From positions 28,084 through 92,083 of the forward strand of contig CACGZQ010000003.1 of the NCBI GenBank assembly GCA_902577575.1: a DNA stretch of 64,000 nucleotides. The letters run 5' to 3'. This stretch comes from an uncultured Pelagibacteraceae bacterium (lineage in GTDB: Bacteria; Pseudomonadota; Alphaproteobacteria; Pelagibacterales; Pelagibacteraceae). A model generated the notes under the pieces. That model ran no database searches. It was not told the DNA's origin and saw nothing but the letters and a program-made list of their open reading frames with translations. Positions 58,957 to 61,023 of this stretch are shown here, piece by piece (the first letter of the stretch is position 1; every line of letters starts with the position of its first letter). Position numbers and translations under genes: made by a program.

Positions 58957-60084
58957 ATGAATTCTCTAGGAATTAATAAAACAAATAAACAAACTAGAGT
59001 AGTAGTCGCTATGTCAGGAGGTGTTGACTCATCTGTTGTTGCAGCTTTGATGAAAGAAGAAGGTTACGATGTTACTGGTATTACATTAAAATTATACGAT
59101 GATACTAAACAATCTAGGGAGGGGAGACAATGTTGTGCTGGTCAAGATATTATGGATGCAAAAAGAGTTTCAGAGAAAATAAGTATAAAACATGAAATTT
59201 TGTATTATCAAAAAAAATTTAAGACCGAAGTAATTGACTCTTTTATAGATAGTTATGCAGCGGGAGAAACGCCGATCCCTTGTGTTCAGTGTAATCAAAC
59301 AGTTAAATTTAGAGATTTATTTAAATATGCTAAGGATTTAAATGCGGACGCATTAATAACTGGTCATTATGTATCTAGAATTCAACAAAATGGAAACGCC
59401 AGCATGTATCGCGCCAAGGATCACAATAGGGATCAAAGTTATTTTTTATTTAGTACTACACAAGAGCAATTAAATTTTTTGAGATTCCCTCTTGGCGAAA
59501 TAGATAAAGCAGAAACAAGATCTATAGCGAAAAAATTAAATTTAAACGTAGCAGATAAACCGGATAGCCAAGATATTTGTTTCGTACCAAATGGAGATTA
59601 CAGTGCTGTAATAAAAAAATTTAGACCAGACTCTTTTAAAAGTGGTAAAATTATTGATTTGGATGGAAATCAAATAGGTGAGCATGAAGGAATTATTAAT
59701 TATACAATTGGCCAAAGAAAAGGAATTAAAATAGCAAGTAATAAACCATTATACGTTGTAAACATAAATTCCGATAACAATACAGTTGTAGTAGGCAATA
59801 AAGAAAATTTAGAAATTAAAGAAATCAGGCTTAGAGAATTAAATATTTTGGCTGATAAAAAAGAATTTGATAAAGCAATAAATATCAAAGTGAGATCTAC
59901 TGGCAGACTTTTAAAAGCTAAAATCAATTTAGAAAATAATTATGCAAAAGTTGAAATTTTAGATAAAGAAATTGGAATTTCACCAGGTCAAGCTTGTGTT
60001 TTTTATTCTCAAGATGAATATGGGGATAAGGTTTTAGGTGGAGGGTGGATTGATAAGACTTTCAATAATTATTTATCCACTTAA
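58957..60084 (+). CDS. mnmA: tRNA-specific 2-thiouridylase
   Basis: [58 protein letters not shown]. Confidence 0.97.
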
Positions 60085-60130
60085 TTAACAACCTATATCA
60101 AGACACGCATTTAGTGATTATAATTTTTTC

Positions 60131-60323
60131 AGAATATGATTTAATAGAATTAATTAAGAGGCAACTCTTAACTGGCCATTTAGGGAAAAACCGAGAGGTT
60201 CAAGCTTAAAGGGCAGAAAGGTGAACCTAGTAGCGCTAGAATAGTTCATCGGGACGGCTTGGCGGTAGCGCCTAAAACGACGAGCCAAAACTACTAAATT
60301 TCTGGGCGAAAGCCTAGAAATTT
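60131..60323 (+). ncRNA. candidate structured non-coding RNA of unassigned family
   Basis: Perfect TATAAT at 60119-60124; stems TTAAGAG-GCAA-CTCTTAA (60154-60171), GGTTCA/TGAACC (60197-60202/60222-60227), TAGTAG/CTACTA (60228-60233/60291-60296), GGCG-GTAG-CGCC (60261-60272), AAATTTCTGGGC-GAAA-GCCTAGAAATTT (60296-60323); no credible ORF; locally GC-enriched. Confidence 0.7.
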
Positions 60324-61023
60324 AAGTGGTTCTTCTCCAAAAAAATCTAGATAATAAATAAAATAAAATTACACCAACAAAATAATTCCATTCTAATGCA
60401 TGTTTAAAATGAGTATTTCCTTTAGTTACTAAAATAGGCAGACTTAATATTGCTATAATAACTAAAATACTAACGAGTAAAAATTTTACAACCAAAACTT
60501 TTTTCAATATAAATTTTTCTAATTTTTCTCTCAATTTATAAAAATGATATACTAAATAGCCTTGAGCAATTAATTCAAAAATAATGAACAATAAAAGAAC
60601 AACCCTTCTAAATAATTTGTAAATCTGTATGTCAAATTTTATACCTAGAAAAATTGAATGAATAGCCAAAAAAATTGCTGATAAAATTCCAAAAGTTTTA
60701 AATTTATAATTTGTATTTGTAGAGTAAAGTTTATTTACTAAATTATTATTATTGTTCCAGTAATAATATAAAAGTATTGCAGTAAAAATCATTGAAGGTT
60801 TAAAGATCAAGTATTGGGGAAAAGTTCTTGAAGCCCTACTAATAGATAAACTTCCATCTAAATATGGAATAGAGAAAGCAGATCTACCTATTTGATCTAC
60901 AGTAAAAATTGTTTCTTCTAACAATTCAGGATTTTGAGATATGTAAAGACATAAATTTATGGCTAGCAACGGAATAAAAAATATCCATATACTCAATTTC
61001 CTTATTTGAGTTATTTCTGGCAT
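60322..61023 (-). CDS. hypothetical multi-pass membrane protein
   Basis: 233-aa ORF with several TM segments. Confidence 0.65.
   Translation of the reverse strand: MPEITQIRKLSIWIFFIPLLAINLCLYISQNPELLEETIFTVDQIGRSAFSIPYLDGSLSISRASRTFPQYLIFKPSMIFTAILLYYYWNNNNNLVNKLYSTNTNYKFKTFGILSAIFLAIHSIFLGIKFDIQIYKLFRRVVLLLFIIFELIAQGYLVYHFYKLREKLEKFILKKVLVVKFLLVSILVIIAILSLPILVTKGNTHFKHALEWNYFVGVILFYLLSRFFWRRTT

Follow-up and report, generated by a model that had tools for sequence, protein, structure and literature searches.

The RNA family IMES-2 (Rfam RF02035) has been catalogued as a marine family with a consensus of four hairpins, and we know of no established function for it. Other structured RNAs of the same bacteria have been proposed: Meyer et al. 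(2009; PMC2704228) described candidates of Pelagibacter ubique, for example the SAR11_0636 element. These resemble IMES-2 in being GC-enriched intergenic SAR11 RNAs, and one of them is thought to be a separate ncRNA. Unlike IMES-2, none of the candidates in Table 1 of PMC2704228 lies beside mnmA, MGMT or rmuC. The SAR11_0636 element is described there as a three-stem junction and, compared by description, is not evidently the same as IMES-2. 6S RNA (RF00013) is likewise an autonomous ncRNA of similar length but differs in architecture, the long rod with a central bubble being a feature of 6S.

The stretch of DNA analysed here (the window) comprises 64,000 nucleotides from an uncultured Pelagibacteraceae bacterium. 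On its plus strand, positions 60147-60288 match RF02035 over model positions 1-141 of 141 with 153.5 bits against a gathering score of 54.7 (E=3.5e-40), and compensatory changes in relatives keep the consensus helices. The window's copy is an ordinary IMES-2 RNA without any essential difference. The earlier note had called this RNA unassigned, which the full-length match contradicts, while its guess at an IMES family proved correct; for its other guess, a divergent 6S RNA, there was no Rfam match at E<=10, and the fold of the patch is not that of 6S either. The Rfam search which it had proposed thus gave as strong match IMES-2 and not tmRNA, 6S or RNase P RNA. No further family was credible for the patch even at E<=10, in agreement with the missing RNase P, SRP and tmRNA signatures noted before: alpha_tmRNA (models RF01849/RF00023) and RNase P RNA (RF00010) are found elsewhere in the same genome, and SRP RNA (RF00169) is present in congeners. 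Apart from IMES-2, the window's sole Rfam match is a glycine riboswitch aptamer (RF00504, 28952-29035, plus strand, 66.9 bits). Several congeners have short, partial matches to alpha_tmRNA no more than a few kb from their tmRNA gene (Table 1), as if islands had been inserted there.

The patch has a GC content of 46-48% compared with 20-34% in its surroundings and is flanked by mnmA (58957-60084, plus strand) and a convergent gene (60322-61023, minus strand). As the earlier note had stated, no sense ORF covers it; the sole ORF of at least 40 aa there is an antisense one of 44 aa. The region 60147-60324 folds with -61.8 kcal/mol (z=-5.35), a value matched by none of 200 shuffles. What is added here for IMES-2 is the host family, the genomic contexts, the boundaries of the unit, divergent members and a helix between loops 3 and 4. 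This helix is not claimed as new; the structure line of the RF02035 model is without it.

Table 1. Features of the IMES-2 locus (window coordinates) and partial alpha_tmRNA matches in congeners (genome:contig:positions)
Feature	Position	Strand	Remarks
-35-like element GTGATT	60114-60119	+	consensus GTGATA; conserved in relatives
-10-like TATGAT	60135-60140	+	conserved T(A/G)TG(A/T)T box (alignment of relatives)
IMES-2 RNA (RF02035)	60147-60288	+	full model 1-141
P1 hairpin UUAAGAG-GCAA-CUCUUAA	60154-60171	+	nearly invariant, GNRA loop
P2	60172-60216	+	invariant CUG/CAG base, internal loops, inner helix with GAGA loop
AAA linker after P2	60217-60219	+	invariant
P3 hairpin	60220-60250	+	60220-60227 pairs with 60243-60250
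Loop-3 side of loop-loop helix, GCGCUA	60233-60238	+	covaries with 60266-60271
P4 hairpin	60256-60286	+	60256-60264 pairs with 60278-60286; contains G.A mismatch
Loop-4 side of loop-loop helix, UAGCGC	60266-60271	+	covaries with 60233-60238
Terminator hairpin	60289-60331	+	19-bp stem, GAAA loop, -23.9 kcal/mol, z=-8.13
Partial alpha_tmRNA matches (outside window)	G000:C3:1517-1589; G036:C7:18627-21317; G018:C1:96804-97285

The covariation analysis across relatives that the earlier note had suggested was based on two alignments, A2 with 27 sequences and A3 with 43 sequences aligned to the model. In A3, double changes were found in 30 of the 45 pairs and 94% of the cells are paired, with 0 of 500 shuffles reaching this on any measure; as A3 was fitted to the hairpins, these counts lean towards them. 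Slid controls for the four-hairpin structure drop to 33-44% paired. Compensatory changes therefore strongly support hairpins P1-P4, in line with the helices that had been proposed for this region in general. P1 is paired in 100% of the cells in the 43 sequences, and four of its pairs show compensatory changes when divergent members are included. In P2 six outer and four inner pairs are double-changed, and P2 is reduced in the divergent members L199, L035 and L036, by eye to a simple 7-bp stem in the sequences of L199 and L035. P3 shows both-side changes in all eight pairs (97% of cells paired) and P4 double changes in five; in the alignment the G.A mismatch of P4 becomes A.G in L125. Besides the GNRA loops GCAA (60161-60164) and GAAA (60308-60311, in the terminator), which had already been recognised, there is a third, GAGA (60193-60196), which had been missed.

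Compensatory changes also strongly support a helix that joins loops 3 and 4 and lies outside the model to which A3 was fitted. Its four inner pairs are present in 43 of 43 sequences and the two outer pairs in 37 and 35. We counted 14 double-change cells, a number reached in 0 of 500 shuffles, and slid controls are lower; three pairs are double-changed, a number which alone is within the shuffles (97 of 500). The inner variants are GCGC/GCGC, GUGC/GCAC, GUAC/GUAC, GCAC/GUGC and UCGC/GCGA, and the main 6-nt variants are GCGCUA/UAGCGC, GUGCUA/UAGCAC, GUACUA/UAGUAC, GCACUU/UAGUGC and UCGCUG/UAGCGA, with some outer pairs mismatched. The variants GUGC/GCAC, GCAC/GUGC and UCGC/GCGA are not palindromic, which argues for pairing between the two loops and against a self-complementary dimer site; the contact is probably one within a single molecule. 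Probably the two mutually pairing hairpin loops hold IMES-2 in shape.

Two of the helices read from the single sequence did not withstand this comparison. The inner GGCG-GUAG-CGCC hairpin fits the sequence of the window but is without compensatory support (74% of cells paired and one pair double-changed, about as in shuffled alignments), and it is in competition with the covarying helix of loops 3 and 4. Of the long-range TAGTAG/CTACTA helix, judged from the alignment and not by pair counts, the CTACTA part (60291-60296) belongs to the 5' arm of the terminator and varies in L009, L017 and L026, uncompensated on the other side.

Upstream of the RNA a simple sigma-70 scan gave no consensus promoter, and the promoter-like block was recognised through its conservation. 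The -35-like element belongs to a longer conserved block (type CAAC/CACg..TA.TAAGTGATA). Most upstream regions have kept this element although their gene contexts are unrelated, and its distance to the TTAAG core is 40-43 nt in most cases; the -10-like box follows about 15-16 nt past the element. This block is common to the mnmA and MGMT contexts. The TATAAT that had been pointed out at 60119-60124 does exist but is not conserved in relatives, where GTGAT (60114-60118) and the box at 60135-60140 are. Accordingly the RNA proper begins near 60147 and not at 60119, where the patch had been thought to start. At the -35 position the block often forms a dyad ATCA(C/A)-N7-GTGAT (L048, L049; about 60100-60119 in the window), which may be a candidate site for a regulator.

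Downstream of IMES-2, terminator hairpins were found in all four cases folded. In the window a terminator scan gave a match at 60295-60324 and the hairpin ends at about 60331. The U tract following it is weak in the window's genus and clear in relatives, with U runs behind the hairpins of L206, L035 and L199. We infer that an RNA of about 180 nt is transcribed from the unit. In the window the hairpin extends into the final codons of the convergent gene and may serve this gene too. The convergent gene itself encodes a membrane-like protein of 233 aa without a Pfam match.

The neighbours of IMES-2 differ. They are mnmA and the convergent membrane gene in L195 as well as in the window's genus, whereas in genus g6 and its allies a tyrosine (Xer-like) recombinase and an MGMT-like gene lie next to IMES-2; the genes beyond the recombinase vary there, and by eye many of them are glycosyltransferase-like. 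In L199 the nearest gene is rmuC-like, and in L035 and L036 IMES-2 lies between nuclease-like and SRAP-like genes (all named by eye). The promoter-like region, the IMES-2 core and the terminator thus form one unit in four unrelated gene contexts. Because this unit changes its neighbours and was not found in several complete relatives, gene order argues that IMES-2 is a self-contained, independent small-RNA gene, probably acting in trans, and not a riboswitch. The structured, probably trans-acting ncRNA of the earlier note is supported.

In the window's genus one IMES-2 copy was found in 25 of the 36 other genomes. Five IMES-2-less congeners were searched for mnmA and the mnmA match was missing there too; for this reason the shared region is probably absent from these five assemblies. 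An order-wide draw gave matches to the model built in this analysis in 197 of 397 genomes, and in class-wide and phylum-wide draws IMES-2 was seen in the SAR11 family Pelagibacteraceae only. Among the matches listed the relatives are all from SAR11, a marine group, and a pattern scan with one genome per species found at least 120 contigs, the titles shown being all Pelagibacteraceae or Pelagibacter. None was found in the genomes of the sister family f2 that were searched. IMES-2 was also unmatched in the complete or near-complete genomes G446, G447, G450, G267, G357 and G455, matched at chance level only in G452 and G453, and was not seen at the recombinase locus of these non-matching genomes; this absence is based on a pre-filtered model search, which missed G158 (found by Rfam's model), and on the inspection of one locus, and is hence not proven genome-wide. 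On a tree of the recombinase, a one-gene tree, carriers are scattered among non-carriers, a pattern suggesting that IMES-2 was lost or gained repeatedly. As complete close relatives appear to be without it, IMES-2 is apparently dispensable and not a core housekeeping RNA.

Several observations concern the recombinase locus itself. The complete Pelagibacteraceae genomes G453, G446, G447 and G445 each have exactly one PF00589 tyrosine recombinase; the f2 genome G037 has two stronger ones. Upstream of the recombinase (loci L206-L225, e.g. L211, L218, L223) there is a near-perfect palindrome, for example TTACTATTGATAA-CAATTAA-TTATCATTAGTAA, the arms of which change together between lineages, and the GC skew turns from plus to minus at the locus in four of four complete genomes. 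Together these features resemble a dif system that is located at the terminus and has a single recombinase (XerS/XerH-like). The idea that IMES-2 marks an attachment site was rejected, for the recombinase that adjoins IMES-2 in g6 is present as a single copy in each of the 20 genomes searched, including genomes without IMES-2. A viral origin was rejected as well: phage and plasmid collections gave no match. A short pattern had a chance match in one viral contig, within a phage gene rich in GC; a second pattern found none.

We consider it about as probable as not (roughly 0.5) that IMES-2 is a dispensable trans-acting sRNA in which a loop-loop scaffold presents P1 and the CUG...CAGAAA segment to a protein. 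The gene would give rise to an RNA of about 180 nt acting in trans, the contact between the P3 and P4 loops would make it a compact scaffold, and this scaffold would offer two segments to a partner, the P1 hairpin with its nearly invariant sequence and the CUG...CAGAAA base of P2. The partner would most likely be a protein, modulated in its activity by IMES-2. The invariance of these two segments suggests a partner that reads sequence. Binding of a protein is favoured on account of this invariance only, and invariant segments would equally arise from base-pairing with mRNAs. The main rival is therefore a regulatory sRNA in which an invariant segment (the opened P1, the CAGAAA linker or part of loops 3 and 4) pairs with mRNAs. 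An autonomous sRNA gene with a terminator, a patchy distribution as is common among regulatory sRNAs, and short invariant segments would suit such an RNA; we nevertheless regard it as possible but rather unlikely, as nearly all conserved sequence lies inside well-supported helices or the loop-loop helix and no long conserved single-stranded seed is present beyond short linkers.

That IMES-2 could be a housekeeping RNA in divergent form, in particular one that replaces 6S RNA, is improbable. 6S RNA was undetected with the Rfam model (E<=1) in 17 of 17 SAR11 genomes from both families, with the control Caulobacter being found, and the size of about 180 nt is similar; yet the long rod and central bubble typical of 6S are missing from the architecture of IMES-2, searches of the sister family f2 found neither of the two RNAs, complete relatives seem to do without IMES-2, and there are separate tmRNA, SRP and RNase P RNAs. 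An accessory SAR11 RNA with a scaffold locked by the loop-loop contact, which is gained and lost as a self-contained cassette and controls a core protein such as RNA polymerase, as a stand-in for 6S, would be a long shot. Very little speaks for a cis-acting element of a neighbouring gene (riboswitch, attenuator or part of a 3' UTR), which the start 62 nt past mnmA in the window's genus and the position close upstream of the MGMT gene in another genus might suggest. From lineage to lineage the neighbours differ, whereas the promoter remains joined to the RNA and its terminator; in the window the gene that comes next is convergent, and the RNA's own terminator precedes any downstream gene; as a riboswitch leader it had already been thought unlikely. 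Similarly hard to credit is conservation at the DNA level, as a recombination or terminus-linked site. IMES-2 does adjoin the Xer-like recombinase at the replication terminus in g6, and P1 is a perfect inverted repeat, but the recombinase gene has a palindromic site of its own and occurs without IMES-2 in many genomes, and the compensatory changes, among them G-U intermediates and those of the loop-loop helix, speak for pairing of RNA.

SAR11 cells rank with the most numerous of the ocean, and few of their regulators are known. The SAR11 lineages carrying IMES-2, its separate and apparently dispensable gene and the testable loop-loop contact can guide the choice of strains, deletion and mutation.
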